Positions 21,295 through 62,860 of a stretch of 64,000 nt of DNA are shown here, piece after piece (the stretch's first letter is position 1; every line of letters begins with the position of its first letter). Location: the IMG/VR virus record IMGVR_UViG_3300025162_000021, positions 106,593 through 170,592 of that record. One strand, 5' to 3'. A program made the position numbers and the translations under genes. The notes under the pieces were generated by a model. That model was not told where the DNA came from and searched no databases. It worked only from the letters and a program-made list of their open reading frames with translations. This DNA is from a virus.

Positions 21295-21747
21295 ATGCCT
21301 ACACCTTCTTCTATGGAATACCTTAGTTTATTATACAAGGAATTGACTCGAAAACTGGAAACTATTCATAAATACATAGATGCCATCGACAATCAGGTCG
21401 GTGACATATACCAGTCAGCTTATGAAGGCGTTTATATCTGTAAGCGCAAGTATGAGATCGTAGAAGACTATAAAGAAACAACTCCGAAGATTCATCCTCA
21501 AACTGAGTTCGCTTTTGAGCCGAGGCCCAATAAGCCTAAAAAAGGCGACACTGGACAGGATGTTCAGGAAACTATAGAAGACCTCAACGAAGATTTGAAA
21601 TCTACCTTCGCTGAGATCAATTTCCGATTCTCTAAGCAGCAAGGAAACCTAGACAACCTAGGAAAGGTCCACTTAGAGTTACAGAATATTATTAATGAAA
21701 TATTCCAAAATTGGAAAACCTTAAATGGAGATGAAGACAAGTTTTAA
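21295..21747 (+). CDS. Hypothetical helical protein, 150 aa
   Basis: GAGGG lies about 10 bases before the ATG. The product is helical with a central Pro/Lys segment (EPRPNKPKKGDTGQD) joining two helical halves; the C-terminal half has Asn/Leu/Gln heptads. It is the only plus-strand gene between minus-strand genes, has its own ACTAATTA motif, and its last four bases overlap the stop of the opposing polymerase gene. No family is recognised; a virion or assembly role is possible. Confidence 0.65.
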   Translation: MPTPSSMEYLSLLYKELTRKLETIHKYIDAIDNQVGDIYQSAYEGVYICKRKYEIVEDYKETTPKIHPQTEFAFEPRPNKPKKGDTGQDVQETIEDLNEDLKSTFAEINFRFSKQQGNLDNLGKVHLELQNIINEIFQNWKTLNGDEDKF

Positions 21748-23876
21748 CGCTTAATTACCAGGGTATCTGTTTCCTTTAGATTCCTCGCCTTCACTTCTTC
21801 TGTCTTCTCACCCCTTTTAACTTTTACTGTCTCGTCGGCAAAGAATACATATTCTTTGCCGTCTTGATTTATAATGACTTCATTAATTTCAAATTCTTTA
21901 TTCCTGCAGAAGACATTCCAACCCGTCGTACTATGTACATCAGCGTTAGGATCTGTTTTATAGGCCTTCAGAAGGAACGCATCATTACCGTCCAAAGCTG
22001 CGAGCCTTAGTTGAAGCCCACTATAATCCATGGTTACTAGTTTACAGTGTTCTATATCAGGTACACTTACAATTTCTTTGACCAGATCAGATCCCAACGA
22101 ATGAGATGGCAAATTCGTCCAATTAGGTTCTCGACAAGTATTGCGCCCGGTTTCCGCACCCATGACATTATATACAGGGTGGAGTTTGGACTTACCCAGA
22201 TCCTCGTGAAACTTCAAGTGTTGTCTCCAACCCATATTCGTATCTGGTAGTCCTAAGAACGTCTTCTGCAACGTCTTGTATGCTCGGAGCTTCTTAAGAA
22301 TAGTCGCTTCAGGTCTTCCCAATTGTTCCCACTGAGTTAACTGCTCGTCGCCTGTTAAATAATAGCCAGACTTAGACATACCACAATTTTCCCACCCAAG
22401 CCACTTAAGTATTTCACCTAATTGCTTACCACTATTAAAATTAGACTCGGGGTCATCTTCATCCGCGCAATCATCAAAGAAGCTATGAAAATCTAGACTC
22501 ATTACCTTTAGTCCATGGCCGCCTAAGAATTCTTGTACCTTCAGCTTCTCGCTCAATTCTCTTTGAAGATCCTTCATCTCCTTATCTACATCGAGAGAAT
22601 TCTTATCCCAAATATCCATGTCTACTTCGATACCCTGTATTTCAACAGGCACAAACATTTTCATCGCTGGCATTCTTTTCTTTTCAAAGTACTCGCGCAC
22701 AGTCCACCAACCCTCTACAGGCGGAGGCCAAGCGAGGTCAATCCAGTTTATTCTTTTCTCCATCGCTTCATACACCTGGAAATTAATGATAGCGTCCATA
22801 GTCGCGTATTGTGATAAGATTTTTTCAGGTATGTCCAAGTACGTCTTTGGATTGTATCTTTTTTTATAGTCGTCTAAGTCTCTATCATAACCTCCAAATT
22901 GCGTATAATAGAAAGCTAAAGACTTCAAACTATTAGATCGAGACTCATTCAAAGTCTGTGCCATGGGTAGAGTATCAATATCAATTTTCGCTGTAGATAT
23001 GCCTGCATTCAAAAGAAACTTGACATCGAATTTTAAATTTTGTCCTATCTGGATCTTATTTCTAAAAAACTCGGTAAGTAGATTCTTATCTATTAGATAC
23101 CAGGGAATATAGAAGCCTTCCCTGCCATCAAAAGACATCGTAATGCAACCTATGCGGTCATTAACAAAATCAAACCCTGATGTTTCCAAGTCCCAGCATA
23201 CCTTACATGATACGGGAGTCCAAGCTTTAAGAAAATTATCAGCCTCATCTGCTTCCATAAGCTTGGTTATTTTTAAGCGCGTGGGACAAGGAGGTTCACT
23301 CAAGCCATCGTAATTTTTTAAAATCTTTTTGATTTGTATTTCTGCGAAATGCATTCTAAAAGAATCTCTGGGCAAAATTCCCATTGGAGTTATTTTAAAT
23401 ATGTCTTCTAGAGCGTCAATAGGAAATACGTTACACTCATATTCTCTCGAGTAAAAGTATGTTTGCGTGAACACTATGTCATAAAAACTATTTATGTGAA
23501 TATTAGAATCGCCGGTTATACCATAAATGGCACGACCGGACGTTATCATGATAGTCTTGTCTGTCATGTATGAAAGAATATTCGCTGCGTTTCTCTTATA
23601 GTACTCCGCGACTCCCTCTTTTTTTATCTCTTCTGAAGTCTTGCTGTACTTCGAAAGACTCACAATTCTATAATTGTAGCCTTGAGGTATCTGCCTGTCT
23701 AACCATTTTGTAAAGGCATCCAAGTGCCTTTGATTAGGGAATGTCTCTAAGACAATAATGAGATGAGTCTCATCGTTACTATGAGCTCTCTCGTACAGAA
23801 GAGCTCCTTTTGTTTCCAAGCCGCTCCCCTTTTTAGAAGAGCCTAAAGATACATCGCCGAATGTGAATGCTGCCAT
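21744..23876 (-). CDS. DNA polymerase family A, N-terminal fragment (exonuclease and motif A)
   Basis: 710 residues. Residues 1-210 unrecognised; 3'-5' exonuclease with WDLETSG (Asp229, Glu231), GQNLKFDVKF (Asp284) and SQYATMDAI (Asp361), so proofreading looks intact; then the polymerase domain with TGRNTCREPNWTNLP and motif A MDYSGLQLRLAALDG (Asp617). After DVHSTTGWNVFC (Cys657) the family sequence breaks off. A foreign-looking tail follows (INQDGKEYVFF, EVKARNLKETDTLVIK) that resembles the strand pattern at the end of an N-intein. Motifs B and C are in the ORF at 62063. The 5'-3' exonuclease is also separate (30287). No Shine-Dalgarno is visible before the ATG. Confidence 0.85.
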   Translation of the reverse strand: MAAFTFGDVSLGSSKKGSGLETKGALLYERAHSNDETHLIIVLETFPNQRHLDAFTKWLDRQIPQGYNYRIVSLSKYSKTSEEIKKEGVAEYYKRNAANILSYMTDKTIMITSGRAIYGITGDSNIHINSFYDIVFTQTYFYSREYECNVFPIDALEDIFKITPMGILPRDSFRMHFAEIQIKKILKNYDGLSEPPCPTRLKITKLMEADEADNFLKAWTPVSCKVCWDLETSGFDFVNDRIGCITMSFDGREGFYIPWYLIDKNLLTEFFRNKIQIGQNLKFDVKFLLNAGISTAKIDIDTLPMAQTLNESRSNSLKSLAFYYTQFGGYDRDLDDYKKRYNPKTYLDIPEKILSQYATMDAIINFQVYEAMEKRINWIDLAWPPPVEGWWTVREYFEKKRMPAMKMFVPVEIQGIEVDMDIWDKNSLDVDKEMKDLQRELSEKLKVQEFLGGHGLKVMSLDFHSFFDDCADEDDPESNFNSGKQLGEILKWLGWENCGMSKSGYYLTGDEQLTQWEQLGRPEATILKKLRAYKTLQKTFLGLPDTNMGWRQHLKFHEDLGKSKLHPVYNVMGAETGRNTCREPNWTNLPSHSLGSDLVKEIVSVPDIEHCKLVTMDYSGLQLRLAALDGNDAFLLKAYKTDPNADVHSTTGWNVFCRNKEFEINEVIINQDGKEYVFFADETVKVKRGEKTEEVKARNLKETDTLVIKR

Positions 23877-24174
23877 ACGAAATTATATGTTTTTTATTAT
23901 GTAAATATTCGCTTGAAGAAAGATATGAGTTTCTAGATATTTGAATTTCGCATAACTAGAGGTTCGAATTTCGCACATCTATTAATATAAAAATAAGTAA
24001 TATAAAATATATAAATATTAAGCCTTGCAGGCTAATTGTAAAAAGCCAGTATTAAGACCTATCATTCTCTTCTTTTTGTATTATTATTCCGCGAAAAGGA
24101 ACAGACCCGGACTTTTCGTAGGTATGATTTTTCCTATATACGCAGAAAAAAGAACAAAAGAATCCGCAAAATAC
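23877..24174. promoter_or_regulatory. AT-rich divergent control region
   Basis: About 300 gene-free bases between the leftward polymerase gene and the rightward GC-rich operon. It contains a very AT-rich stretch (23976-24025), two direct repeats of GAATTTCGCA (23943-23952 and 23966-23975, 23 bases apart), and from 24135 on the upstream block shared with the 1290-1340 region. No ORF or RNA gene was recognised. It could hold operators or an origin. Confidence 0.45.
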
Positions 24175-24206
24175 TTGCCACCGAGCACACAGCAAATGCT
24201 TATATT
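24175..24206 (+). promoter_or_regulatory. Strong promoter (copy 2)
   Basis: TTGCCA at 24175-24180 and TATATT at 24201-24206, spacer 20. TTGCCACCGA and CTTATATTATATA are shared with the 1341-1376 promoter. It drives the operon from 24248 to 26347. Confidence 0.7.
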
Positions 24207-24247
24207 ATATACGTAAGCAAGAAACGAAGAACGCAAGGAGCCAAGAA

Positions 24248-24472
24248 ATGGCACGAATCGCAATCGCGACCGGCAACAAAACCACGAATCACAGGACCGC
24301 ACGGTCCGTCGTCACCCAGTACGACGTGAATTCGAAGGAGTGGCAGGACCGCATTACCAATCTTAATCGGGATCTCGATCGCAAGAACGACGGCTCGATT
24401 TCCAGGCTTCCCAACGGCAATACTCCGATGGTCGTCCCCGGCTACCGGACTCGAAGCATCTCCAGTTTCTGA
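24248..24472 (+). CDS. Small basic hypothetical protein, 74 aa
   Basis: The first gene after the strong promoter; AAGGAG precedes the ATG. The product is basic and polar (ATGNKTTNHRTARS, EWQDRITNLNRDLDRK) with a C-terminal VVPGYRTRSISSF. GC content is much higher than that of the flanking polymerase gene. No family is recognised. Position suggests a highly expressed early protein. Confidence 0.7.
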   Translation: MARIAIATGNKTTNHRTARSVVTQYDVNSKEWQDRITNLNRDLDRKNDGSISRLPNGNTPMVVPGYRTRSISSF

Positions 24473-24500
24473 ACCTGCACTCTAAAAGGAGAGTTTATAG

Positions 24501-25139
24501 ATGTCAATCAACGTGTGTTCCTATAAGATTACCGAGGCTGGTAGTCTTACGAATCCCGAGCCGGCTTCGTTTGCCGAGGTGTCCAAGCCCGACATGAGTC
24601 TCCGCAAGGGAATCACGGTTTACTTCGATACGAAGAAGTATACGGTTCTCGGTCAGGCGCCCATCTACGCGCTTATCAGCGAGGCAGGGGAGGACGTGGC
24701 AATTCGAGTGCGCAAGAAGCACCTCTACGTCCCGAACGACGTTCTCAACGGCACCGCGATCGTGAAGATGGCGGCTCCTGCGAAAGTCAAGGTCGCCAAG
24801 GTCAAGGTCGAGAAGGCTCCTAAGGAGCCCAAGGCTCCGAAGGCGAAGAAGACACTCATTCCTGCTGTCGTGCAGGGTGCGTTCGAGACGCGCATGGCAG
24901 AGTTCCGTACCGACAGTGGTCGGAGCATCAAGGGCCTTCGCATCGAGAACACGGACGGTGCATCCTTCCGCGTCATTGTCGTGGATCCTACTAAGTCTGG
25001 CTGGGTTCTCATGGCCTCAGATAAGTGGGACATTGGAGCCTACAAGTTCTACAACATCGATACCATGGCGTCGAGAGATTTCGATCGCGCGGCCGATAAG
25101 CCGGGCCCTGGCGATTCCTCGATTGTGTGGCCGAAGTGA
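24501..25139 (+). CDS. Two-domain hypothetical protein with Lys/Ala/Pro linker, 212 aa
   Basis: AAAAGGAGAG precedes the ATG. Residues 1-90 form a beta-rich domain, residues about 92-118 are a lysine-alanine-proline linker (KVKVAKVKVEKAPKEPKAPK), and residues 120-212 form a second domain with RVIVVDPTKSGWVLMASD. The linker resembles histone-like tails and could bind DNA or RNA, but no fold is identified. It is followed by a hairpin at 25144. Confidence 0.65.
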   Translation: MSINVCSYKITEAGSLTNPEPASFAEVSKPDMSLRKGITVYFDTKKYTVLGQAPIYALISEAGEDVAIRVRKKHLYVPNDVLNGTAIVKMAAPAKVKVAKVKVEKAPKEPKAPKAKKTLIPAVVQGAFETRMAEFRTDSGRSIKGLRIENTDGASFRVIVVDPTKSGWVLMASDKWDIGAYKFYNIDTMASRDFDRAADKPGPGDSSIVWPK

Positions 25140-25143
25140 AATA

Positions 25144-25170
25144 GAGGGGGACCTTAGGTCCCCCTCTTAG
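25144..25170 (+). terminator. Strong GC-rich hairpin, weak terminator or attenuator
   Basis: Stem GAGGGGGACC / GGTCCCCCTC with a three-base TTA loop, followed by only a short TTAG. The missing T run suggests partial termination or mRNA end protection, with transcription continuing into the next ORFs. Confidence 0.6.
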
Positions 25171-25184
25171 GTGGAGAACATTAA

Positions 25185-25542
25185 ATGCGTAAGACGATTG
25201 ACATTACGATGATGGACGGACAGGTGATCAAGGCTCCGCTGTGCCTGGTGTGGTGTGATATCAACGATACCCATACCGAACTCTATTTCGTATGGAAAAC
25301 ACCATATGGATGGATGCTTGTGTCTTAATGAAGACAGATATCCATCCCTATGGGACCACGCCGAGCCCATCGAGTTCCCGGACGTGTGGACGTTCGGCAA
25401 GGCGTGGGACGACGAACCAAATAATTTCGTATGGGGATATTTTAAGCTGGACGATAATGGCAATTGGTTTCGCAAGAATAAGCGGGGTTCGTGGATCAAC
25501 TTCACGCCCGGCCTCCCGCCCGCGACCATAGAGGGGGAATGA
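25185..25542 (+). pseudogene. Frameshifted small gene (about 118 aa if joined)
   Basis: Frame 0 from ATG 25185 (with AGGTGGAG upstream) encodes 47 residues, MRKTIDITMMDGQVIKAPLC through KTPYGWMLVS, and stops at TAA 25326. The +1 frame from 25327 continues with NEDRYPSLWDHAEPIEFPDV, KAWDDEPNNFVWGYFKLD and GSWINFTPG to a stop at 25540. Both pieces look like real protein and neither makes sense alone. The join needs one base skipped at TCT-TAA-TGA. Either an indel or sequencing error, or a +1 frameshift at a stop codon in the style of prfB. The next gene start overlaps the second stop. Confidence 0.6.
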
Positions 25543-25925
25543 TGGACAGGTACACCGAGACGGCGCGGAAGATAATTGGGATTATTGACTACAACCGTGA
25601 CGAAGGAAGCTACACCGATCCATCAAAAGTAGCCGCCATCCTCCGCGAGGAGTTCCCCGAGCCCGCGCAGGACGCAATGGGTGTTGCTCGGCAGATAGCG
25701 CCTATATTTTGCTATCCTGTCGATTATCCCGGTATCGACGAAGCCGCCGCCCTCATCGAAGCCTACGCTCGCAAGCGCGTGGGGGGGGCGGCGGATAGGG
25801 CAGGGACATGGCTGAATACGCAATTCGGTGGTGGTGGGTTTGAAGATAATCCGGCAATCCAGCGGCTACGCAGCAGACAGCATATTTTCCTGCGCGCCGC
25901 GATCATCGGCAAGGAGGAAGTATGA
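25539..25925 (+). CDS. Hypothetical protein, 128 aa
   Basis: Starts MMDRYTETARKIIGIIDYNR at an ATGATG overlapping the previous stop, with GAGGGGG upstream; an earlier in-frame ATG at 25491 would read through the upstream gene and is not preferred. The first two thirds are helical with alternating polar residues; a run of seven G's at about 25782 gives GG in the protein. A Gly-rich patch (QFGGGGFED) precedes a helical C-terminus. No family is recognised. High GC composition contrasts with the late genes. Confidence 0.65.
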   Translation: MMDRYTETARKIIGIIDYNRDEGSYTDPSKVAAILREEFPEPAQDAMGVARQIAPIFCYPVDYPGIDEAAALIEAYARKRVGGAADRAGTWLNTQFGGGGFEDNPAIQRLRSRQHIFLRAAIIGKEEV

Positions 25926-26347
25926 CCAGGGATCAGATCGACAAGGTGCGCAATGCGATTGCATACGGCAAATGTCTGTCGGAACGCGAAAATGGTGAGC
26001 GATGTACTGTTACAGAGCTTTTTACGGAGGCCCTCGCCCTCCTCGACGCTGAGGCCGCGCAGGACAACGTAGACCGACATGTCTACAAGCTGACTGTGCA
26101 GCAACGTGATCTTGCATGGACGCAACTCAGGACAGCCGAGGTTGTGGAACGAGAGCTTGAGGCAAGAATCAAGGATTGCGAGACCCGCGAGAAGGCGCTC
26201 AGGGAGGCGCTTGACAACGCGGCGGCACAAATCGAATCACTAGCGCTATCATTTCAAAGCCACGGCATCATGGAGCATTACGACCGGGCTTTGAAATGCG
26301 CCTACGCTGCCCGTTCCGCCTTGCTCGGCCCAGGAGGCGAGGGATGA
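25922..26347 (+). CDS. Helical hypothetical protein, 141 aa
   Basis: ATGA overlap with the previous stop and AAGGAGGAAG upstream. The N-terminal third has MTRDQIDKVRNAIAYGKCLS; the central part is a long Ala/Glu/Leu helix (ERELEARIKDCETREKALRE) likely forming a coiled coil. This type of small helical protein is common in GC-rich phages and may point to a past exchange. It is the last gene before the terminator at 26369. Confidence 0.7.
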   Translation: MTRDQIDKVRNAIAYGKCLSERENGERCTVTELFTEALALLDAEAAQDNVDRHVYKLTVQQRDLAWTQLRTAEVVERELEARIKDCETREKALREALDNAAAQIESLALSFQSHGIMEHYDRALKCAYAARSALLGPGGEG

Positions 26348-26368
26348 TCAGATAGATACATAACTTTC

Positions 26369-26400
26369 AAAAAGTCCTCTCTAAGAGAGGACTTTTTTTT
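26369..26400 (+). terminator. Terminator ending the GC-rich operon
   Basis: Stem AAAGTCCTCTC / GAGAGGACTTT with loop TAA and a run of T. The stem is the same as in the terminator at 223-246. Confidence 0.92.
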
Positions 26401-26485
26401 ATGCCCGTATAGCTCTCCAAAGCGCCTTAGGTCCTCTCGTTATAACTCAATTTTCCTAGTAAGAAGAGAGAATTTATGCCGTTAC

Positions 26486-26493
26486 ACTAATTG
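26486..26493 (+). promoter_or_regulatory. ACTAATTG motif variant
   Basis: ACTAATTG directly before the AAGGAG ribosome site of the 198-aa gene at 26509, about 90 bases after the terminator. The 26401-26485 stretch holds no gene that I can see. Confidence 0.35.
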
Positions 26494-26508
26494 ATAAGGA
26501 GCCTCAGA

Positions 26509-27105
26509 ATGTATATCGATGAGTATCAACCTATGTCAGAAATGCACACATGGATGAAGGGACGTGGAGTTGATGTAAATGTATACATATGCATTCAATC
26601 GGTGCTGAGTTTGGGAGACGAACGAAAAAAAGATCTTGACGTCTTTTTAAAAACATTCGGAGGACCATTCACTCTCCAGCATAATGGATCTTTTCATGAA
26701 TACGATTGGAATATTTACACGAAGCCTAGCATAGGATACTATTACAATAAATACTTAGCCAGCGGCCCAGGGTATGATAATCCCGGAAAGCTTTACACTA
26801 TAGATTTAAAAGATGGATCCTATGCATCAGAGCACACGCATGTTTTTATCAAAACAGCTTTATATGAAGTTTTAAAAAGACATGAGGATCTTCATTGGTA
26901 TATCGTCAATGATTTCATGGACTCAGACTCCGGACCCTCTAATTCTAAATTCAGAGGCCATGAAGTTCTATCGACGGAAGAAGTAAAACCGTTTCTTGAA
27001 GATGAGCTGGTCAAAGCGGTTGCGTCGTGGAAGATGAGCAAAGAGAATTATAATGAAGGTGGGGCCGGACAAATGCCAAGAATGATTAAGTTAGGCCTAT
27101 TATGA
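26509..27105 (+). CDS. Hypothetical protein, 198 aa
   Basis: AAGGAG is 8 bases before the ATG; an in-frame TTG at 26491 is not needed. The protein is mixed alpha/beta with many aromatic residues (FHEYDWNIYTKPSIGYYYNK). No catalytic motif is obvious. It leads the replication operon running to 32231, and its end overlaps the next start by four bases. Role unknown. Confidence 0.7.
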   Translation: MYIDEYQPMSEMHTWMKGRGVDVNVYICIQSVLSLGDERKKDLDVFLKTFGGPFTLQHNGSFHEYDWNIYTKPSIGYYYNKYLASGPGYDNPGKLYTIDLKDGSYASEHTHVFIKTALYEVLKRHEDLHWYIVNDFMDSDSGPSNSKFRGHEVLSTEEVKPFLEDELVKAVASWKMSKENYNEGGAGQMPRMIKLGLL

Positions 27106-27584
27106 TTGATGTAGATTTTCTATATGCAGTATTCCAGCCCTGCCCTCCTCGTAACATAGTATGGTATTGGTTAGACCCTCAAAAACAAAGTTACAAACGA
27201 GTATCTAAAATTGATTCTTTCATAGAATTTGTTGAGAATAAAAATAGAAAAGTGCTACCTCAGATGAAGGAGGCCCTATGCACGTACTCTTTTTGGATGT
27301 GGAATCAAGTCGACAATAGGGTGATTTTATTACATCCTTCCGATGCACAAGACCGCACCTATAGAGATCCGCTCGCCAGTTACTTTAAGAAGGGGCTAAA
27401 AGGGCAGGACCCCTTTGCACCAGAAGAGCAAGATCCTTTGAGTCACTTATATAAACTCGGCTTTCAGATGCCCAATGAAGATGATATTAAAAATCTCAGA
27501 GTCAGAATGACCCCTACAAAACAAAAATCTTTTTTGGCGCGCATAGGAAACATCTTACCAGGAAATACCTCGCGAAAAAAATAG
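27102..27584 (+). CDS. Hypothetical protein, 160 aa
   Basis: Coupled to the previous gene by overlap. An aromatic N-terminal half (YAVFQPCPPRNIVWYWLDP) and a polar second half with a basic tail (MTPTKQKSFLARIG). No family is recognised. It lies 12 bases before the primase gene and may be a replication accessory, by location only. Confidence 0.65.
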   Translation: MIDVDFLYAVFQPCPPRNIVWYWLDPQKQSYKRVSKIDSFIEFVENKNRKVLPQMKEALCTYSFWMWNQVDNRVILLHPSDAQDRTYRDPLASYFKKGLKGQDPFAPEEQDPLSHLYKLGFQMPNEDDIKNLRVRMTPTKQKSFLARIGNILPGNTSRKK

Positions 27585-27596
27585 CTATATTCTAGT

Positions 27597-28577
27597 ATGA
27601 GGAATCATCCATATAGTACAGATCAAATAAAGTTAGCCCTGCGAAAACTCGGCGTCAAGTTTCCCTCGAGCATCGACTCTAAAGATAGAGCCATGGCTCA
27701 TTGTCCTTTCCACTCTGACAGTACAGCTTCGATGTCTATCGATTTTACACGTGGAATCTTTCACTGCTTCTCTTGTGACGCATCCGGCTCCATCAACACC
27801 TTATCTGAAAAAATGACAGGAAGAAAACTCGATGTTCTTCTAGGCGTCGATACTTCTTTCTCCATGTTTTCAGGTCATATAAAACAAGAGTACACCCCAA
27901 AACCAATTAATGAAGAAGATGTCACGATTGATGTGCGAGGCATCGTCGCTCCTTGGACCCATGTGCCAGAAGCTATTGGGTATGTAAAATCTAGATTCAT
28001 ACCTCCAAGAATAGCAACGGCGATGCAAATGGGGTTCATCAAAGAAGCGTATGTGAATGGCACGTACTATGAGGATCGCTTAGTGATTCCTATCTATGGA
28101 AAATCTGGCAAGCTTATCAATCTTGAAGGTAGGGACGTGACAGGAACTCATAAACTAAAGTGCTTATATCCTCACGGTATAACGAAGACAATCTATGAAT
28201 GGTATAAGCTTGACAAAGAGAAGCCTTTATATGTCGTTGAGGGACTGACGAAGATGGCTTGTCTTCGCGGCGATGATTATTTTGCGAATTCGACCACTAT
28301 CTTCGGGGCATCCGTAACCGCATATCAGATGGATTTACTTAGCGAATTTAAGAAGGTCGTGTTAATACCGGACAATGATGAGCCTGGAAAAAAGGTTATC
28401 GATACCTTTAAAAATAGATTAAGAACTAAATTCGATGTTATGAGAATACAGGATACAGCAGCAAAAGATATTGATGAGATTCCTCGTAAGCTTGGTCTCG
28501 GCGTCGAGGAATACAGAAAGAAGGGCGGATTTCTCATACAAGGTTTCACTTCTTTTCTTTTCGGGGAATTTGCCTGA
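27597..28577 (+). CDS. DnaG-type DNA primase (CHC2 zinc finger plus TOPRIM)
   Basis: 326 residues. The zinc ribbon is Cys36, His39, Cys57, Cys60 (AHCPFHSDSTASM, FHCFSCDASGS). The TOPRIM fold has VVEGLTKM with Glu215 and LIPDNDEPGKK with Asp259 and Asp261, the metal-binding acids. The protein is shorter than bacterial DnaG (about 600) and lacks a helicase domain, so it works with a separate helicase not in this window. It makes RNA primers for lagging-strand synthesis. No clear Shine-Dalgarno before the ATG; translation may be coupled to the gene 12 bases upstream. Confidence 0.9.
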   Translation: MRNHPYSTDQIKLALRKLGVKFPSSIDSKDRAMAHCPFHSDSTASMSIDFTRGIFHCFSCDASGSINTLSEKMTGRKLDVLLGVDTSFSMFSGHIKQEYTPKPINEEDVTIDVRGIVAPWTHVPEAIGYVKSRFIPPRIATAMQMGFIKEAYVNGTYYEDRLVIPIYGKSGKLINLEGRDVTGTHKLKCLYPHGITKTIYEWYKLDKEKPLYVVEGLTKMACLRGDDYFANSTTIFGASVTAYQMDLLSEFKKVVLIPDNDEPGKKVIDTFKNRLRTKFDVMRIQDTAAKDIDEIPRKLGLGVEEYRKKGGFLIQGFTSFLFGEFA

Positions 28578-28584
28578 CTAATTT
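28577..28584 (+). promoter_or_regulatory. ACTAATTT motif variant
   Basis: ACTAATTT just after the primase stop and 18 bases before the next gene's ATG, with AAGGAG between. A variant of the ACTAATTA group. Confidence 0.3.
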
Positions 28585-28602
28585 AAATGAAGGAGATCAA
28601 AC

Positions 28603-28884: not shown

Positions 28885-28889
28885 CATAA

Positions 28890-30255: not shown

Positions 30256-30260
30256 CCGCT

Positions 30261-54000: not shown

Positions 54001-54018
54001 AAAATAGGAGAGAATAAA

Positions 54019-55154: not shown

Positions 55155-55168
55155 GCAGTATACATAGG

Positions 55169-55176: not shown

Positions 55177-55197
55177 CTAATAGAGAGGAATACTCCA

Positions 55198-55896: not shown

Positions 55897-56921
55897 CTGA
55901 AGCTCCTGCTAGTGCAGTAACGCCTGCTGTCGTGTCTTTATTACACGACATAATCAGCAAACCTTTTTGGGAATCCGCTGTGCTGATAGTCCTAGCAGGT
56001 CTTGTGACATTTTTTGTTGTAGGCGGTCTTGCGTTCGCCCTATCGCGAATTCGAGGGGAGGTAGATATAGATTTCTTATCTTTGTTCCGTATAGGTAAGA
56101 AAAGAGAAGAACTAACTTCTAGAAATGATATCAATATCGTAGTAAATAATACCCCACCCTCAACTTCCGCTGAATTCGTTAAAGAGGAGAATAAGCTTTT
56201 GAATGAAATGATAGGGGCAGAAGACATGGTTGAAAAAGATGAGATTATCGCGGAGAAAACTCCTGGTGATCCCGATAACGTCTTGCTTATGGTTATTAGC
56301 AAGAGCGTTAGATTCGGATCGGATATCTCCAAATACAAAGAAGTGTACTTAATAAAATCTCAGATGGCTGCTGCGGAGTTGAGGTCGAATATTATTGAAA
56401 ATATTCTTATAAAAGATTACATGGAGGTAATATATAAGAAAAATTCAAAAATCAACATTCAAGATGACCAGTCCTATCGAATCTTTGAAGAGATAGTCCA
56501 TAACCAGGCCCATAGAAATATCTTAGCAGTCTTGCGTAGATTGTTCAAAGACAATCATTTAACTCAATACGACGAAGAAGGCTTCAATGAGTACTCAAGT
56601 GTACAATGCGAAAGAATAATAACGCAAATGAAGTTATCTATAAATGGGTCTATTCCTAGTTTTCTTGATCCGGGTCGAGAAGCAGTAAATATAATCCTTG
56701 ATCGCTCGAATCAAGCGCTCTTAGAAACCTTCAAAGATATTTTTTCTGAAGCCCGTGTTTTAGCTTTCAGAACAGAGTCAGTTATACGTAAAAAAGAAAA
56801 AGACTTCGACGATGAGATAAAGAAGCTCACGGGAATTTCAGAAGCTCATAAAAGGGCTGATATCGCTTCTGAAGATCCCTATGCTATAAACTATAAAACA
56901 AGGGAATTAAAATATGAGTGA
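55893..56921 (+). CDS. Membrane-anchored protein with large cytoplasmic helical domain
   Basis: 342 residues. One transmembrane segment at about 27-50 (SAVLIVLAGLVTFFVVGGLA) is followed by a soluble part with a conserved-looking helical core (SYRIFEEIVHNQAHRNILAV) and a Lys/Glu-rich C-terminal coiled coil. No known family. It overlaps its upstream and downstream membrane genes by four and eight bases, so the three form a tight unit in the late region. Confidence 0.65.
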   Translation: MTEAPASAVTPAVVSLLHDIISKPFWESAVLIVLAGLVTFFVVGGLAFALSRIRGEVDIDFLSLFRIGKKREELTSRNDINIVVNNTPPSTSAEFVKEENKLLNEMIGAEDMVEKDEIIAEKTPGDPDNVLLMVISKSVRFGSDISKYKEVYLIKSQMAAAELRSNIIENILIKDYMEVIYKKNSKINIQDDQSYRIFEEIVHNQAHRNILAVLRRLFKDNHLTQYDEEGFNEYSSVQCERIITQMKLSINGSIPSFLDPGREAVNIILDRSNQALLETFKDIFSEARVLAFRTESVIRKKEKDFDDEIKKLTGISEAHKRADIASEDPYAINYKTRELKYE

Positions 56922-57210
56922 TACTACTGTAGTAAATACAAGCGTTACTGTAAATACAAAGCCTTTGGGATTCTTTAGAGACCCCTCAGGAGACTTGAGT
57001 TCAGGAAGGCTTGTAAAGATAGGCTCTTTTTTCGCAGCCATTGTTATTGGCTTAGCAGGATTAGGTGTATTAAGTTACGCCGCAATCTATCCTGCGGCAA
57101 CAGTTAACGCAGCCTTGACACCACTTTCCAGCTACTGCTTAGGAATTGCTGGAATGTTTTTAGGCGTCGCCGGCGGATCTGAGATCGTACAGAAAGTTAC
57201 TAAAAGTTAA
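56914..57210 (+). CDS. Small membrane protein, holin-like candidate
   Basis: 98 residues with two hydrophobic segments at about 37-58 (FFAAIVIGLAGLGVLSYAAI) and 66-88 (PLSSYCLGIAGMFLGVAGG), a polar N-terminus and a basic end (QKVTKS). Size and topology are like class II holins, and late position fits. No endolysin is adjacent, so the call is tentative; a virion membrane-contact protein is the alternative. Confidence 0.4.
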   Translation: MSDTTVVNTSVTVNTKPLGFFRDPSGDLSSGRLVKIGSFFAAIVIGLAGLGVLSYAAIYPAATVNAALTPLSSYCLGIAGMFLGVAGGSEIVQKVTKS

Positions 57211-57229
57211 GTCCCACTGGAGGACACAC

Positions 57230-57237
57230 ACTAATTA
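57230..57237 (+). promoter_or_regulatory. ACTAATTA motif upstream of the 618-aa virion gene
   Basis: ACTAATTATAGAG in the 69-base gap, 43 bases before the start codon. The following gene is a probable abundant virion protein and has its own strong AAAGGAG ribosome site. Confidence 0.45.
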
Positions 57238-57279
57238 TAGAGTTAGGAGCCTCATAGAGGTAAATACAAAGGAGATCAT

Positions 57280-59136
57280 ATGGCAACTATTAAGAAATCC
57301 CTGAAGAAGGGCGGCGAGGCTCGTTGGACGTTCCGAGGAGCTCAGTCGGGAGATTTTTTCACAATTCCAAACGGATTCCGAGTCGCTACCGACGGCGTTG
57401 TTTTAGAGAACAATACAACCGTTCCAGTAGAAGGAACCATTTCTATCGGTAAGGGCAGCGTTCCTATTTTTGGAGCTTATGCCTTCACACTCAGCACTCT
57501 TACGACTGCTACCACAGGTACTATTACTGCTGGTGGTGCGTTGAGCTTCACCACAGCTCTGACTGCTGCTCAGGTTACCGCAGTTAACGCTCTCGGTAAC
57601 ACAGCGGCTGGATTAGCTCTCTTCGCATCTTCTCTTGTAGGTAATATCAATGCAACAGCGGCAGGAGCGGCTGCAGCAGCAGCAGCAACTACCAATCCTG
57701 GATACCTATCCCCTTGGACAGTATCTTCTTCTGGTGCAGTTATTACCTTCGTGGCCCCTGTTCCAGGCACTGTCAACACAGCACCTACCTTCACGGGCTC
57801 AGCTGGTGTAACAATCAGTGCAGCTGTTAACACGGCAGTTGGAGCAAACGACGTTTCTGTTCTATCTGGTTACTCTGTAGCCTCCTTGGCCCCAGGAGCA
57901 ATAACTCAGGTTACTTTGCCTGCGCCTATCTACAACGACGTGGCTACCGGTGGAAGACTTAATACTGTTTTCACAGGTACAACTTCAGGCTCTGCGGGAT
58001 CATATGTTCTCTGTGGAAAGACAGTAAGTATTCCAACATCTACCACGGCCCTTCAAACCGGAGTCGTACTAGGCGGACGTTCTATTTATGTCTCTACGAT
58101 ATCTGGTTACGTAGGTACAGCAGGTATCACTGTTAACGGCGTCGCTGTTACGGCTCTTGCTTCTTCTCTCGCCGGTATCGTTAACGGCATCGCAAATACT
58201 AACGTTCCAGGATGGACTATATTCTCTGACGGCGCAACAATCTTTACAATGATTGCTAACTTGCCCGGTCCGACATCAATGCCTGTTATAGTGACTGCAG
58301 GTCAGTTCACTAACACACCATCTACCCAGACTGTGGGCTTCAATCTTCCTGGTTATATCGCTGACACTTCTACTCCGATCGCAACTACAATTACTTTAAA
58401 CGGTAACGCTGGTGCATTAGCTTCTGCTGTAATCGGTGGAAATTATGTCGCAGCTCCTTATCTCGCTGCATTGACTTATACTCCTACTATAATGGCCCCC
58501 GTCTTTGCTGGATGTGCGTGGTACCAGGGAGTTATGACTGGTGCGCCAACTGCAACTACTCAGATAGTTATTGATGGTGTTTCTTCGATCGCTTGTGGTG
58601 CAACTTCTCTAGCTTCCCTGATGACTGCCATGGCTGGTCTATCAGGCGTTAACTGGATTATCACAAACGTAGCAGGCGGCTCCTTCCTGATGGTTAACAC
58701 CGTCCCAGGATATCACGCTCCTCCTGTGATTTCTTTCACCAACAACAACAACGCTGCTGTGGGTACTATTACTTCTGGTCCAGGATTTACTCTTTCTGGC
58801 TACACCCAGACTTACACGGCAACGACCGCAGTGTTTACTTCTCAGGCTACTACTTATGCGCCTGGAATGTCTTTCTACCCCGTGGTAGCTCCTACTACTC
58901 AGACTTGGATTAAGAATGCGGCTTACAGCGGCTCTACTGGTGGCGTTATTGTATCTAACGATATTGTAAACACCGTGGGCTACTCGGCTCCAACTCTCAC
59001 AGTAGGAAGTACAATCGGTACTCAGACCTATGTGAATACCCTCACTTCAACTGATACTCCTTACTTCTTTACCTTCTCTCGTTCTGAGATGCATGGTAAG
59101 ACCAATGTGTCAGTTCTTCTAAAGAAGTGGTCGTAA
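57280..59136 (+). CDS. Virion protein with repeated Ig-like/beta domains, 618 aa
   Basis: AAAGGAGATC precedes the ATG. An N-terminal 60-residue basic region (TIKKSLKKGGEARWTFRGAQ) is followed by repeated domains, each of about 100 residues with GxxxTxxxxAxxxxxVTAVNA-like strands, such as LTAAQVTAVNALGNTAAGLA and further Ser/Thr/Ala-rich blocks. This composition is typical of decoration or fibre proteins made in quantity. The codon pattern is GC-richer than its neighbours, in keeping with high expression. It has its own upstream motif and a terminator after it, so it forms a single-gene unit. Confidence 0.65.
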   Translation: MATIKKSLKKGGEARWTFRGAQSGDFFTIPNGFRVATDGVVLENNTTVPVEGTISIGKGSVPIFGAYAFTLSTLTTATTGTITAGGALSFTTALTAAQVTAVNALGNTAAGLALFASSLVGNINATAAGAAAAAAATTNPGYLSPWTVSSSGAVITFVAPVPGTVNTAPTFTGSAGVTISAAVNTAVGANDVSVLSGYSVASLAPGAITQVTLPAPIYNDVATGGRLNTVFTGTTSGSAGSYVLCGKTVSIPTSTTALQTGVVLGGRSIYVSTISGYVGTAGITVNGVAVTALASSLAGIVNGIANTNVPGWTIFSDGATIFTMIANLPGPTSMPVIVTAGQFTNTPSTQTVGFNLPGYIADTSTPIATTITLNGNAGALASAVIGGNYVAAPYLAALTYTPTIMAPVFAGCAWYQGVMTGAPTATTQIVIDGVSSIACGATSLASLMTAMAGLSGVNWIITNVAGGSFLMVNTVPGYHAPPVISFTNNNNAAVGTITSGPGFTLSGYTQTYTATTAVFTSQATTYAPGMSFYPVVAPTTQTWIKNAAYSGSTGGVIVSNDIVNTVGYSAPTLTVGSTIGTQTYVNTLTSTDTPYFFTFSRSEMHGKTNVSVLLKKWS

Positions 59137-59158
59137 TTTAAACGAATTTTCGAAAAAT

Positions 59159-59185
59159 AAAGGAGGCTGAAAAGCCTCCTTTTTA
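59159..59185 (+). terminator. Terminator after the 618-aa gene
   Basis: Stem AAAGGAGGCT / AGCCTCCTTT with GAAA loop and a T run. Confidence 0.9.
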
Positions 59186-59201
59186 ATTTAATTAGAGATG
59201 T

Positions 59202-59209
59202 ACTAATTT
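59202..59209 (+). promoter_or_regulatory. ACTAATTT motif variant
   Basis: ACTAATTTGG seven bases before the ATG at 59216, immediately after a terminator; the gene lacks a Shine-Dalgarno. Confidence 0.35.
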
Positions 59210-59215
59210 GGAACG

Positions 59216-59659
59216 ATGTACCAAAACCCCAGAACTCTATTTCAGCAGCGTATAAATGGTCTTCTAAAAGATCCGGAATGTTCTCCTATGTTTGAGGATA
59301 TCTTTAAATTGCTGCAGTTATATGCCTTAGAAAAATTAACGCCCAATAAGCCTGATGAGTCAAACTGGAAAACTCTGTTGCTTATGTACGAAGAACTAGG
59401 CCCATCTGGGATGGCTAAGCTCGTGTCCTTGGCTAAAGGCAAAGCCATAACTTTCCCTACAGAAGAAGAGTTTCAAGACTCTGTAATAACTACTTTAAGT
59501 TATTACTATAAGGAAGTAGAGAATAAGAATTGGGACGAAATTAAAAAGATACTGAATCAGCCGGATCTGAATACTATTAAGTTCGGCATTCGCGTACGGA
59601 ATTTCTCGACGTTTATAAATGAACAGTTGTTGAAAAAATTCAAGAAGGTAGAAATATGA
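59216..59659 (+). CDS. Hypothetical protein, 147 aa, baseplate-hub-type candidate
   Basis: 147 residues, largely helical (MFEDIFKLLQLYALEKLTPN, PSGMAKLVSLAKGKAITFPT). No Shine-Dalgarno is seen. Coupled to the next gene by ATGA overlap. Pairs of small helical proteins in this location in T4-like phages are hub or assembly factors such as gp26/gp51, but I cannot show homology. Confidence 0.55.
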   Translation: MYQNPRTLFQQRINGLLKDPECSPMFEDIFKLLQLYALEKLTPNKPDESNWKTLLLMYEELGPSGMAKLVSLAKGKAITFPTEEEFQDSVITTLSYYYKEVENKNWDEIKKILNQPDLNTIKFGIRVRNFSTFINEQLLKKFKKVEI

Positions 59660-60132
59660 AAAACAAAGATTTAGAGGACGCAAAAAACATGTTAACTGCT
59701 ACGTTGGTGGAATCCACTAAAACACCAACCTTATACGACCCTTCTACAGAAGTAGAGAGATCATTATCTAGCTTTCTTCAACATAGGCTGACCAAATTGC
59801 AGGAGGACGCTTCAAGAGAAGAAACTATATGGGAGGCTATAACAGAGAGAGTCTCTGAGTTCAATCCTGATCAGCTAATGAGGCTTCTAAATATTCTACA
59901 AGAGAATAGTAACTCAGGCGTTGAAAAAATCCTGAGTCCTTTCATTCCGAGAGCAGGGGAAAGAATTCCCCTCTTGCCTGACAACTCAAAGAAGAGTAAG
60001 GATATCGTCGAAGAGACAATATTCAATGAGTCTGGTAAAGATTTGATGGAGGCCTTTTCCGAATTGAACTCCCTAGTGAGGGAAATGGCTAAGACAAGAG
60101 AAACTGAGGATATAAAGAAAGTACTGTCGTAA
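59656..60132 (+). CDS. Hypothetical helical protein, 158 aa
   Basis: ATGA overlap with the upstream gene and AAGGTAG before the ATG. Helical, acidic, with long Glu/Lys segments (EETIWEAITERVSEFNPDQL) and LLPDNSKKSKDI. It could be a chaperone or assembly factor. After its stop at 60132 the transcript continues into an 86-base untranslated stretch that holds a perfect anti-16S sequence and a terminator. Confidence 0.6.
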   Translation: MKNKDLEDAKNMLTATLVESTKTPTLYDPSTEVERSLSSFLQHRLTKLQEDASREETIWEAITERVSEFNPDQLMRLLNILQENSNSGVEKILSPFIPRAGERIPLLPDNSKKSKDIVEETIFNESGKDLMEAFSELNSLVREMAKTRETEDIKKVLS

Positions 60133-60152
60133 AATATACTTTTCTGTATCTT

Positions 60153-60169
60153 TAGAAAGGAGGTGATCC
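60153..60169 (+). ncRNA. Perfect 17-nt complement of a 16S rRNA 3' end in an untranslated stretch
   Basis: TAGAAAGGAGGTGATCC at 60153-60169 is the exact reverse complement of a 16S rRNA 3' terminus ending GGAUCACCUCCUUUCUA. Normal ribosome sites in this genome pair at four to seven bases. Nothing substantial is translated after it: in reach are only a GTG and an ATG that begin the same frame and stop within nine codons (VTKMYKNKR). A terminator follows at 60219. It may be a tail of the preceding mRNA or a separate small RNA that binds 30S subunits. The RNA assignment is an inference. Confidence 0.5.
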
Positions 60170-60218
60170 TAATCTAAAGGTGACGAAAATGTACAAAAAT
60201 AAAAGGTAGGAATATGCT

Positions 60219-60250
60219 AAGAGGCTCTCTGAAAAGAGAGCCTCTTTTTT
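60219..60250 (+). terminator. Terminator between convergent genes
   Basis: Stem AAGAGGCTCTCT / AGAGAGCCTCTT with GAAA loop and a T run on the plus strand. It overlaps the first bases of the helicase stop on the opposing strand. Confidence 0.9.
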
Positions 60251-62066
60251 ATACACTACTCATCTCAAATATCATCTTCGCTGTATTACGATCTAAGTAC
60301 TGTTGAGTACCGAACTTTTTAGTTGTGAAGTCCTTATCTTCCAAATTCATATCTCGAACACAATCTAAGGAGTTATCAATAATTAGGAGATAGGTGTACA
60401 CCGTCTTCTGTTGCCCAATACGATGAATACGAAATATAGATTGGTTATACTCTGTATAATTCCAGGTTCTATCAAAGTAAATAGCTATATTAGCCTCAAC
60501 AATAGTCACGCTGCTATTAAGAACCTGTATGCCCGCAATAAGAATATTGCGATCTTTCGAGGCTTGAAAATCTGCTATGATATCTGCCTTGAATTCATCC
60601 AGGGTCCTCCCCTTCGGTACTTTGACTTCCCCGTTGATGAGATAGGGCTGCCTCTTTTCTAAGATTACCGCCAGTTCTTGACCGACTGTAGGATGAGAGC
60701 ACCATATAATAATTTTTTCGTTAGGATGCTTTTCTAAGAGATCATCCAAAGCTCCCATCTTACAGTGATTAGAGAACTTAAATTTTTCGACCTTGCGAAT
60801 AAGATTGTCTGGTAACTTTGTTTCATGGTTTAAAAGTAAGCTTGGATTATCGATGGCTAAGGAGAGATAGGGGAAAGAATTAAACACAGCTCGAGAGTCT
60901 ATGCCTCCGTAAAATTCTTGTATGGCTCGTAGTTTTTCTACAACGATTCCTTGGTAGATTTCCTTCTGCTCATCAGATAGCTCCACATAAATCTTCTGTA
61001 TGAAGTGCTCAGGCAACTCCAAAACGTCGTCAGCAAATCTTCGAGTAGACACTGATTTTACAATATCAGCCATCTCTATAAGTTTATTGGGTTTGAAGTA
61101 ATTGATAGCATATAAAGAAAATCTATTGCCAGTATCTGCATACTCTTGTAGCCACTCGAAGTAAGAGAAATTCTTTACTAAGGCGGGATCTAAGAACTTC
61201 AGCTGTGAGTAGTACTTCTCTTCTCTGTCTGCAGGAGTTCCTGTTGCAATGTATCTATACTGAAAGAAGGGAGCGGCAAGGTGTATGGCCTTAGATTGCC
61301 TGGCTTGAGGATTCGCGATATTATGTGATTCGTCCAGGATAATGATGCCAACATCTCCCTGAAGCCAATCTCGAAAGGGAATAGGACACTTACGATAATT
61401 CTTTGAATTGGATATCTCTTCCTGATACTCATCAGATACTAAGAGGAAAGATCGGTAGCTGCAGATGACAACATGAGATTTCACGTCGTCAAAAGGTCGC
61501 CGGTTTTTAATTCCCCCAACTCTAACATCTGATGAGTCATAGTTAGAAAATCTCCCCAGTTCTCTCTTGATATTGTAAGTGCCAGACCCTGAGGTAATGA
61601 TAAGTACTTTTCTGACGTCTTTGTATTTACGGAGTAATTCAAGGGTGTTACATAGTATCCAGCTCTTCCCGGTACCTTGTTCATTAAAAAGAGCATATCG
61701 GTTGTAACTGGAGCATTTAGATAGGTCTTCGAGTTGGAAATATTCATGCGGCGCCTTCCCCATAATGGGTTGTACTTTTAAATCATCTTTAGTAAAAGGA
61801 ATTCTTTGAAATTCGATCGATCTCTTGGGAGTCTTCAATATCTCTATCTGAGACCATACTTCGTTTGTAATATAAAGTTCTTCTACGTCTCCCAAAGCGT
61901 CTATGACAGAGTCATAAACAGACGTCGGAATACACCACTGTTTACTCTTTGGTTCAAACTGACATCGATATCTCTTATATATAGTAAGATCTGTATCGAA
62001 GGCGTTGACCGAGAATAATTGACTGGCATATATTTTATCGTCGCGAACTAGAATCTGAATGCTCAT
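60249..62066 (-). CDS. SNF2-type superfamily 2 helicase
   Basis: 605 residues. N-terminal 100 residues precede the helicase core: NEQGTGKS (128-135, Walker A), a strand motif LIITSGSGTYNIK, CSYRSF, DESH at 245-248, GTPAD, and in the second lobe WCSHPTVGQ, ADFQASKDRNILIAG and FRIHRIGQQKT (motif VI). This arrangement is that of SNF2/HepA-type translocases. In T4-like phages UvsW and related helicases remodel replication forks and recombination intermediates. It overlaps by four bases with the PolA C-terminal fragment upstream, so they share a transcript. Confidence 0.85.
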   Translation of the reverse strand: MSIQILVRDDKIYASQLFSVNAFDTDLTIYKRYRCQFEPKSKQWCIPTSVYDSVIDALGDVEELYITNEVWSQIEILKTPKRSIEFQRIPFTKDDLKVQPIMGKAPHEYFQLEDLSKCSSYNRYALFNEQGTGKSWILCNTLELLRKYKDVRKVLIITSGSGTYNIKRELGRFSNYDSSDVRVGGIKNRRPFDDVKSHVVICSYRSFLLVSDEYQEEISNSKNYRKCPIPFRDWLQGDVGIIILDESHNIANPQARQSKAIHLAAPFFQYRYIATGTPADREEKYYSQLKFLDPALVKNFSYFEWLQEYADTGNRFSLYAINYFKPNKLIEMADIVKSVSTRRFADDVLELPEHFIQKIYVELSDEQKEIYQGIVVEKLRAIQEFYGGIDSRAVFNSFPYLSLAIDNPSLLLNHETKLPDNLIRKVEKFKFSNHCKMGALDDLLEKHPNEKIIIWCSHPTVGQELAVILEKRQPYLINGEVKVPKGRTLDEFKADIIADFQASKDRNILIAGIQVLNSSVTIVEANIAIYFDRTWNYTEYNQSIFRIHRIGQQKTVYTYLLIIDNSLDCVRDMNLEDKDFTTKKFGTQQYLDRNTAKMIFEMSSV

Positions 62067-62860
62067 TGGAGATTATGCTCCTTGAAATATTTTCTCCAGT
62101 CTACGCCGCCTTTATAGTACTCCCCCTCACGAGGATCTGCGATAACAATATCTACTGTCAAAGGAACACCCTTCTGCCAGGGTTCCATTCTTTCAAATAT
62201 TTCTTTGATCTTGGCTATCACCTCTTTCATTTCATTATCCCAGATAATGAAATCTACAGAGTCGTGAACCATACCTTGTATATAGGATTTAATATTATTG
62301 GCTTCTTTCCAGATTTGGAAATCGACCATGCAACCCATTACTTTACAAGCCTCATCATTTTGAATAGTCGTGTTGGCTAAGATATTATAAAGGCCCGCTA
62401 CTTCTTTTCTATCCTCATCCTTACCTTTTAGCATAAGAACTGGCGTTCTGCGAATTGCTCCGTGGTAAGAACGAACATATCCCTGCTCCTCGCCTATCTG
62501 CTTATTACGCTCAATGCGATCAGCAAGTCCTTTATATGTCTTAAAGAATTGGTCTCGAATATAATCAGCGACCGTAATGTAGCCCCACATTTTAGGTTCT
62601 ACATCTTTATACTTCTTAGCAATATTAAATTTCTTGTCGTAGAGCTGAAATTCCTCTATGAAGTCGTCGACCTGCTCTTGCGTCCATTTTACAGATAAAG
62701 TAGTCTCGGCGAATGTTATGGAAGCCATACCGAATAAAAATCCGAAGTTAACTGCTTTCGCCATTTGTCTGTATACATCGTAAATGTTATCTTTCTGGCG
62801 CAGTCTCTTAAATTCAATTTCTGTTATGGGCCTCATGACTTTTCTATGTGTGATTTTCAT
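62063..62860 (-). CDS. DNA polymerase family A, C-terminal fragment (motifs B and C)
   Basis: 265 residues from an ATG at 62860; an upstream in-frame TTG at 62908 would extend it but is not supported. It begins MKITHRKVMRPITEIEFKRL and continues with motif B RQMAKAVNFGFLFG and motif C GMVHDSVDFIIW, the fingers and palm parts missing from the polymerase at 21744. FLFG replaces the common xxYG in the O helix. The rest is the thumb-side C-terminus ending WRKYFKEHNLQ. Only together do the fragments contain all three catalytic motifs. How they join (intein or noncovalent) is not shown: no clear C-intein precedes the ATG. Ribosome site is weak. Confidence 0.8.
   Translation of the reverse strand: MKITHRKVMRPITEIEFKRLRQKDNIYDVYRQMAKAVNFGFLFGMASITFAETTLSVKWTQEQVDDFIEEFQLYDKKFNIAKKYKDVEPKMWGYITVADYIRDQFFKTYKGLADRIERNKQIGEEQGYVRSYHGAIRRTPVLMLKGKDEDRKEVAGLYNILANTTIQNDEACKVMGCMVDFQIWKEANNIKSYIQGMVHDSVDFIIWDNEMKEVIAKIKEIFERMEPWQKGVPLTVDIVIADPREGEYYKGGVDWRKYFKEHNLQ

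Follow-up and report, generated by a model that had tools for sequence, protein, structure and literature searches.

Results

A family A DNA polymerase is encoded in two pieces 38 kb apart

We analyzed a 64,000-nucleotide stretch of viral DNA, called the window below, which covers bases 106593-170592 of the 170,592-base virus record IMGVR_UViG_3300025162_000021. In this window, a family A DNA polymerase (PolA) is divided between two open reading frames (ORFs). The N-piece carries the exonuclease and motif A, and the C-piece carries motifs B and C. An earlier note on this DNA had described two such ORFs, both on the minus strand and 38 kb apart, and we found them where it had placed them. The relevant features, in window coordinates, are as follows.

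21744..23876, minus strand: N-piece (P0001) of the family A DNA polymerase, 710 residues, with the 3'-5' exonuclease, the thumb, the first part of the palm with motif A, and the tail (putative clasp)
22005..22028, minus strand: motif A, DYSGLQLR, residues 617-624 of the N-piece; E replaced by Q
21747..21905, minus strand: tail (putative clasp), residues 658-710 of the N-piece; homologous by profile to the back half of N-inteins (block B/N4), with no block A and no TxxH
62063..62860, minus strand: C-piece (P0002), 265 residues, with motifs B and C
62834..62860, minus strand: lead of the C-piece, MKITHRKVM, preceding the native RPITEIEF...; no C-intein seen by eye; presumed partner strand of the tail
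62729..62773, minus strand: motif B, YRQMAKAVNFGFLFG, residues 30-44 of the C-piece
62258..62269, minus strand: motif C, VHDS, residues 198-201 of the C-piece

In Pfam scans, P0001 matched DNA_pol_A_exo1 (PF01612, 2.8e-14) at residues 212-376 and DNA_pol_A (PF00476, 6.8e-19) at residues 477-659, the latter over profile positions 29-198 of 381. P0002 also matched DNA_pol_A (PF00476, 4.1e-18), with its best stretch at profile positions 237-376. Because the profile stretches continue from one piece into the other, we conclude that the two pieces make up one DNA_pol_A domain. The PHROG family phrog_17 also continues across the pieces, from 1043 in P0001 to 1051 in P0002.

The exonuclease residues D229, E231, D284, Y357, and D361 are present in the N-piece, as are the polymerase residues D617 of motif A, R31 and K35 of motif B, and H199 and D200 of motif C in their respective pieces. 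The earlier note held that the catalytic residues are intact. This was correct for the exonuclease, the motif A aspartate, and motifs B and C but not for the motif A glutamate of other phage PolA proteins, which is a glutamine in the window (DYSGLQ). The same replacement is found in 13 of the 13 subfamily rows aligned, intact members included. The point at which the N-piece was said to leave the polymerase family also had to be moved: the family continues through NVFC (residues 654-657), and the foreign part starts at R658.

An assembly break and a second complete polymerase gene elsewhere had been named in the earlier note as grounds for doubting the split, and we found neither. The two ends of the record are identical over 127 bp, and a second contig, 3300009502_000025 (94 kb), spans the join of these ends and has both halves at about equal spacing. 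Over the 42.9 kb compared, this contig and the record differ by one gap and zero mismatches. Because of the identical ends and the second contig across the join, we conclude that the genome is a 170,465-bp circle, and the same two observations rule out an assembly break as the cause of the split. No second complete polymerase was found in profile searches of the whole record, in which PF00476 matched the N-piece and C-piece ORFs only and neither a family B (PF00136) nor a family III (PF07733) polymerase was matched. No family B or III polymerase was found in any of the nine records that we searched, the window's record included.

Extra residues flank the break

At the break, 53 extra residues follow NVFC in the N-piece (the tail) and about nine precede RPITEIEF in the C-piece (the lead), whose start we read by eye as MKITHRKVMRPITEIEF. 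We compared the printed motif A to motif B regions of seven intact relatives (L029, L030, L209, L220, L223, L224, and L229, leaving out L221) and found no insert in any of them. In the L029 chain, for example, the HSxTA region runs into the helix before motif B as ...MHSFTAQPIFCPEMTLEEFLSKK.... Because the seven intact relatives have no insert there, we regard the tail and lead as additions at the break, and the possibility that the tail is a native loop was ruled out. The window tail is 14-45% identical to 13 other aligned tail rows, and its pattern is kept.

The split is conserved in other phages

Scans with subfamily alignments, followed by ORF extraction, revealed another 14 N-piece loci, each with a C-terminal tail of this kind. 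With the window (also designated L004), this makes 15 loci in 15 records. The break falls after motif A in L213, L214, L215, L216, L217, L219, L222, L225, L226, and L232 and before motif A in L111, L230, L231, and L233; L215 and L216 are near copies, and L230 and L231 are identical over the region used for the tree described below. A C-piece is also present in 11 of the 15 N-piece records, at spacings that range from adjacent to 208 kb. The four records without a C-piece are 25.7 to 57.9 kb in size. The pieces lie 38 kb apart in the window, 33 kb apart in G001 and G011, 208 kb apart and on opposite strands in G012, half a kb apart in G013 and G015, and 1.8 kb apart in G019, where a Prs-like ORF (by eye) lies between them. 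The C-piece of G014 is directly upstream of the N-piece. A C-piece alone was found in G003, G021, and G022, and that of G022 has an in-frame TGA. We excluded one candidate, L175, as a likely frameshift, since its pieces overlap over 13 bases. Because the arrangement is conserved in other phages, the split is not a decaying accident of this genome.

We also noticed that in the C-pieces of L204, L225, and L232 the NFG of motif B is changed to GLA or GLG, and nucleotide selection or activity may differ in these proteins.

No close relative was found in named phages: among the matches listed (40 of 111, 12 of 568, and 12 of 87 rows in three scans), identities were below 28%, and none reached 80% query coverage. 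In a scan of bacterial and archaeal genomes (best 80 of 235), there was one 31% relative, L355, on a 3-kb contig of a metagenome-assembled genome (MAG), and the remaining matches were 22-27% identical and mostly in Bacteroidota MAGs.

The tail is homologous by profile to the back half of N-inteins

We compared 16 tails with 10 N-inteins using hhalign and obtained a probability of 96.2 and a score of 46.5. The 16-tail set leaves out L216 and L231, which are near or identical copies, and the rows with a break before motif A were left out of alignments A7 and A8. As controls, 200 column shuffles scored at most 15.3, reversed tails scored 12.2, and four polymerase alignments gave nothing. The match lies in the final ~45 columns of the N-intein, which hold block B/N4: the back half of the inteins gave 96.9 and the front half 0.1, and there was no profile-profile match of the tail to the block A half. 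The probability was 96.0 with inteins from outside this genome and 92.1 with non-polymerase inteins. When the tails were divided, seven of the post-motif-A tails gave the weakest value (86.7), and the group of L222, L225, L232, and the pre-motif-A rows gave 95.1.

Hidden Markov models (HMMs) of 16 tails, 15 tails (without L227), and 10 tails (post-motif-A only) were run against 35,580 ORFs from the collected loci and the window's own genome. The best non-polymerase match was the N-intein of the genome's own NrdA (1.3e-6, 1.1e-6, and 1.2e-7, respectively). The models also matched the NrdA N-intein of the record behind L214, in two overlapping ORFs, at about 2e-5 and 1e-4, and the N-inteins of the Aes PolB proteins and the N-intein-like end of G023 at about 1e-3 to 1e-2. 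The first unrelated ORFs appeared at an E value of 0.16. With the 10-tail HMM, we found the Aes PolB N-inteins at 9e-4 and 1.6e-3, a middle piece of the G018 polymerase (described below) at 3.4e-8, and the pre-motif-A tails weakly (1.2e-3 to 0.11). All 19 matches of a 14-row tail model were PolA pieces or inteins, including three intein ends and two middle-piece tails that the model had not seen. As judged by these profiles, the tail and the back half of N-inteins (block B/N4) are homologous. This agrees with the earlier note, which had seen in the tail the strand pattern of an N-intein end that lacks block A.

Elements needed for splicing are missing from both pieces

The tail begins directly with the block B region, without block A. 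The histidine of block B occurs in seven of seven inteins and in none of 16 tails, and the T position of block B is Thr or Ser in seven of seven inteins and in 3 of 16 tails; this count leaves out the UvsX, TerL1, and TerL2 inteins, which are cut before N4. By eye, neither block F nor block G is present in the C-piece, nor is there an Asn ahead of a nucleophile, in contrast to L028 and L326. Pfam reported PF14890 for the C-part of NrdA but not for P0002, and the start of P0002 thus shows no clear C-intein, as had been noted earlier. Because block A, the block B histidine, and the C-intein are all missing, canonical splicing should be impossible.

Inteins that look complete do occur in the same genome. 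For comparison, the NrdA gene in the window has the following parts.

19425..20531, minus strand: N-part of NrdA, with an N-intein (block A and TPDH present) at its end
17805..19397, minus strand: C-part of NrdA, starting with a C-intein (...VYDITVENTHNFYANGTVIKN before C)

These NrdA halves (window positions 17805-20531) are 27 bp apart, with no endonuclease gene between them. By eye, there are contiguous inteins in QueE-, UvsX/RecA-, and TerL-like genes of the G000 record (2825-4696, 24921-27050, and 100830-105071), and the TerL-like gene apparently has two. Pfam intein matches in the window's own genome were to QueE, NrdA, and one TerL.

Some relatives have three-piece polymerases or inteins at other sites

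In G018 and G020, the N-piece ends before motif A and the C-piece begins after it, so that motif A lies on a separate middle ORF. We found these middle ORFs (127 and 167 codons) in a search with motif A rows (alignment A6), with E values of 6.4e-12 and 2.3e-4. Each of them combines a C-piece-type lead (M.LKI.K) with an N-piece-type tail, and a tail model built without them recovered their tails at 2.0e-9 and 6.4e-12. Because the middle pieces carry both ends, the tail and lead look like a single module that serves at both breaks. The search gave no motif A piece for G017 or G002, which are short records with the same kind of N-piece. In L232 (G019), about 110 extra residues precede motif A on one chain at the site of the G018 and G020 break, and these are tail-like by eye.

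The G016 polymerase (L226/L326/L331) consists of three chains: an N-piece with a tail, a 151-codon middle ORF with a lead followed by an N-intein with block A, and a C-piece that starts with a C-intein ending in YLTHN before CNFG. This split intein sits at motif B. Its N-intein, recognized by eye, is 28-30% identical to the N-inteins of L227 and L028 (E about 3e-11 in two-sequence comparisons). G016 combines the putative clasp with an apparently complete split intein at another site in the same polymerase, and this three-chain PolA, with a tail and lead beside a putative trans-splicing element, could serve as a natural positive control.

Two other loci have inteins at motif B. The PolA gene of L028 (4359-8725) is broken there by a split intein with block A CFIKGT... 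and a C-intein ending in IIGQ before C, and a 1.2-kb ORF between the halves is endonuclease-like by eye. In G023 (L227, 11945-13525), a tail-like insert lies uncut between motifs A and B and is followed by a whole intein at motif B; an N-intein-like end is found on the preceding ORF, before motif A. Tail models that leave out L227 did not find its insert, and their best stretch in that ORF was its real intein. The insert is thus an unconfirmed member of the tail family, and we count the uncut form in G023 only as possible.

Predicted folds, selection, and history of the tail

We folded the window tail together with residues 380-710 and obtained four predicted strands, with a predicted local distance difference test (pLDDT) score of 84-91 over model residues 291-330. 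The incomplete palm beside the tail was poorly predicted in this model. A fold search with the N-piece model returned polymerases only (best 50 of 151). We also folded the L227 insert on the tail alignment (pLDDT, 67.6; predicted template modeling score [pTM], 0.43). In a Foldseek search with this model, ranks 1-32 were inteins and other Hint domains (best E value, 0.07; probability up to 1.00), and VIA-align placed the model onto intein residues 45-109 (Z, 6.1; root mean square deviation, 1.9; 55 residues). We treat this match as indirect support because a Z below 8 counts as weak for this tool and the kinship of the insert with the tails is unproven.

Between L215 and L216, we counted 2.5 non-synonymous and 9.5 synonymous substitutions in the tail and 13.5 and 77.5 in the body. 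A binomial test for 3 of 12 indicated purifying selection on the tail (p, 5e-5). Because the counts parallel those of the body, the tail is constrained like the rest of the protein in this one pair.

When a tree was built from the region that precedes motif A, 14 of the 15 split rows fell on one side of a weakly supported branch (67/95), and L219 was placed among intact and intein-bearing rows. Holding all 15 split rows together was marginally rejected by the approximately unbiased (AU) test (AU p, 0.033). The rows with a break before motif A form one supported clade within the group (100/100). Both one origin of the split rows with transfer and two origins would be possible.

Neighboring genes

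The end of the C-piece overlaps the following gene.

60249..62066, minus strand: SNF2-type helicase gene (Pfam)

By eye, G001 and G016 likewise have an SNF2-like ORF after the C-piece, as does G003, where small ORFs intervene. Pfam found no endonuclease in three neighbors, namely, the two ORFs downstream of P0001 and the helicase after P0002; by eye, three endonuclease-like ORFs lie elsewhere in the record. Apart from the polymerase, two long ORFs on the plus strand of the window (14710-15369 and 14715-15290; 219 and 191 residues) cover nearly the same stretch in different frames. By eye, the two products look membrane-anchored and coiled, and they are perhaps nested spanins.

Discussion

We think it likely that both catalytic ends of an old split intein were lost and that the remainder persists as a non-covalent clasp linking the polymerase chains. 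According to this model, a split intein once would have broken the replicative family A polymerase of this lineage between motifs A and B. The ends at the splice junctions would then have been lost, block A from the N-piece and blocks F and G from the C-piece, leaving what lay around the old split point: on the N-piece a beta tail of ~50 residues, the final part of the N-intein, and on the C-piece a lead of about 10 residues. The two pieces would be made as separate chains and stay separate. The tail and lead would pair as the intein halves did, and the clasp and the palm interface would keep motifs A, B, and C together in a single active site, so that the complex would be the working polymerase. 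The residues kept would be those that flank the natural intein split point, and the residues lost would be those that adjoin the splice junctions. The back half of the N-intein is said to be the part that first captures the C-intein ("capture and collapse," Shah et al. 2013). Retaining this capture function and dropping the rest could give a docking clasp. The earlier note had offered two possibilities, an atypical or decayed trans-splicing system and a polymerase that functions in the form of two chains. Our comparisons favor both at once, with a tail that lacks block A and the block B histidine and a multichain outcome that is conserved.

With somewhat less assurance, we also favor the view that "clasp inteins" form a class of their own, in which split inteins without either of their former catalytic ends have been domesticated into a modular docking domain. 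Use at two sites would give two- and three-chain polymerases, to which G016 would add an apparently complete trans-splicing intein, and G023 may hold the uncut module.

Several points weigh against these interpretations. We infer the docking of tail and lead. The lead is too short for homology to C-intein starts, and its position and short M.(K)I pattern are what suggest that it came from a C-intein. Because single tails match no Pfam intein family and gave chance families only, the tail-intein homology rests on profiles, and the intein set used for these is small (10), chosen by us, and partly from the same phages. The Pfam intein model did not report the G016 intein and placed the L028 intein below the cut-off. 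The intein fold match comes from the L227 insert, whose kinship with the tails is by position and by-eye pattern; for the window tail itself, four strands are predicted. The L227 model is modest both in its scores (pLDDT, 67.6; pTM, 0.43) and in its matches (best Foldseek E value, 0.07; Z no higher than 6.1). Finally, motif B is divergent in some C-pieces (KKVGLAFIFA in G001 and G011, KTVGLATLFA in G015, and KHVGLGLLFY in G019), so that a normal enzyme is not obvious for all of the split polymerases.

An alternative that we consider unlikely, though it deserves weight, is that the halves assemble by the palm and fingers alone and that the tail and lead are tolerated remnants or have another role, for example in binding the SNF2 helicase. 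Docking domains are not always needed for reconstituting a protein from its fragments, the lead is short, and the C-piece gene adjoins the helicase gene. However, the tail pattern is kept in 13 rows at 14-45% identity and is under purifying selection in one close pair, leads recur on C-pieces, and the G018 and G020 middle pieces have a lead and a tail, one for each break.

It is improbable that the halves are still trans-spliced, whether through some unorthodox chemistry or with another protein supplying the missing intein piece. The intein-derived tail and the apparently complete split intein in NrdA of the same genome would fit such a mechanism, but there is no conserved nucleophile at the junction, where C, A, V, or T follows the extein VF or TF in the post-motif-A rows. 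Block A is missing, as are the block B histidine in 16 of 16 tails and an Asn before a nucleophile in the window C-piece, and G016 has these elements at another site of the same polymerase. In the usual mechanism, moreover, block A must be covalently joined to the N-extein and cannot come from elsewhere.

We find it very doubtful that the polymerase is dead or partitioned, with the N-piece serving as an exonuclease, the C-piece as something else, and a host polymerase carrying out replication. The motif A change from E to Q and the divergent motif B of some relatives could be read in this way. In contrast, the catalytic aspartates and the motif B lysine are kept in the window, the E-to-Q change is shared by intact members of the subfamily, none of the nine records searched has a family B or III polymerase, and 11 of 15 records have both pieces.

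Joining of the halves before translation, by RNA-level trans-splicing or an intron, is extremely improbable. A passage of PMC10580990 places group I introns in the polymerase genes of many phages, but the window has no Rfam match at the gathering threshold and none up to an E value of 1 around the N-piece, and we reject an intron at the tail. Beside the C-piece, Rfam gave a single weak match, to a histone stem-loop (E value, 0.016, below the cut-off). Conservation of the tail is, moreover, seen at the protein level.

Inteins are regarded as selfish elements whose fate is to splice or to decay. In this phage, one apparently was kept for pairing the halves after losing its chemistry. If this is true, the insertion of a parasite can turn a single-chain replicative enzyme into an obligate multisubunit one, and the clasp would be a compact natural docking tag. 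For annotation, this is a warning that a phage seemingly without a complete polymerase may have one after all, divided into two or three pieces that lie far apart.

Comparison with known systems

Dassa et al. 2009 reportedly described fractured genes with split inteins and free-standing homing endonucleases. Like fractured genes as that work is said to define them, the window gene has its halves in separate ORFs broken at an intein site, and L028 looks by eye like a clear example in this PolA subfamily. Unlike fractured genes, the window gene has no complete intein; among the three neighbors tested by Pfam, no endonuclease gene was recognized. The MIJ3 PolB (PMC6892783) is a further system of this kind.

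In the Aeromonas T4-like phages Aes508 and Aes516, the GenBank annotation gives a replicative phage polymerase, PolB, with a split intein and in three ORFs (gp43A, gp43B1, and gp43B2), and the N-intein end of Aes PolB is homologous to the window tail (tblastn E values of 2-4; tail HMMs, 9e-4 to 4e-3). In contrast to the window, the Aes intein starts with block A (SVVGDT) and has TADH and a C-intein whose end is VHN before S, and the pieces are neighbors; the window is without those intein elements, and its pieces are 38 kb apart. Passages of PMC11923092 report that the Aes123 PolB1 intein splices with about 30% efficiency and that the usual natural split point of inteins is the site of the endonuclease domain, which gives N- and C-inteins of about 100 and 40 residues.

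The relevant passages of openly licensed papers on split polymerases and split inteins contain no non-splicing intein remnant used as a docking domain, which is no proof of absence. PolA is also encoded in two ORFs, with the exonuclease in the N-part and the remainder of the polymerase in the C-part, in MEP401 and MEP402 (PMC10580990) and in Mic1 (PMC7156551). Compared by description only, these differ from the window in that the ORFs are nearby, an intron is suggested or stated, and the passages concerned mention no intein-derived tail. The PolIII alpha of group 2.2 jumbo phages belongs to another polymerase family and is split between subdomains, with no link to inteins mentioned in the part of PMC7824862 that describes it. 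Like the window polymerase, it is a phage polymerase encoded in distant genes, and its parts are thought to reconstitute.

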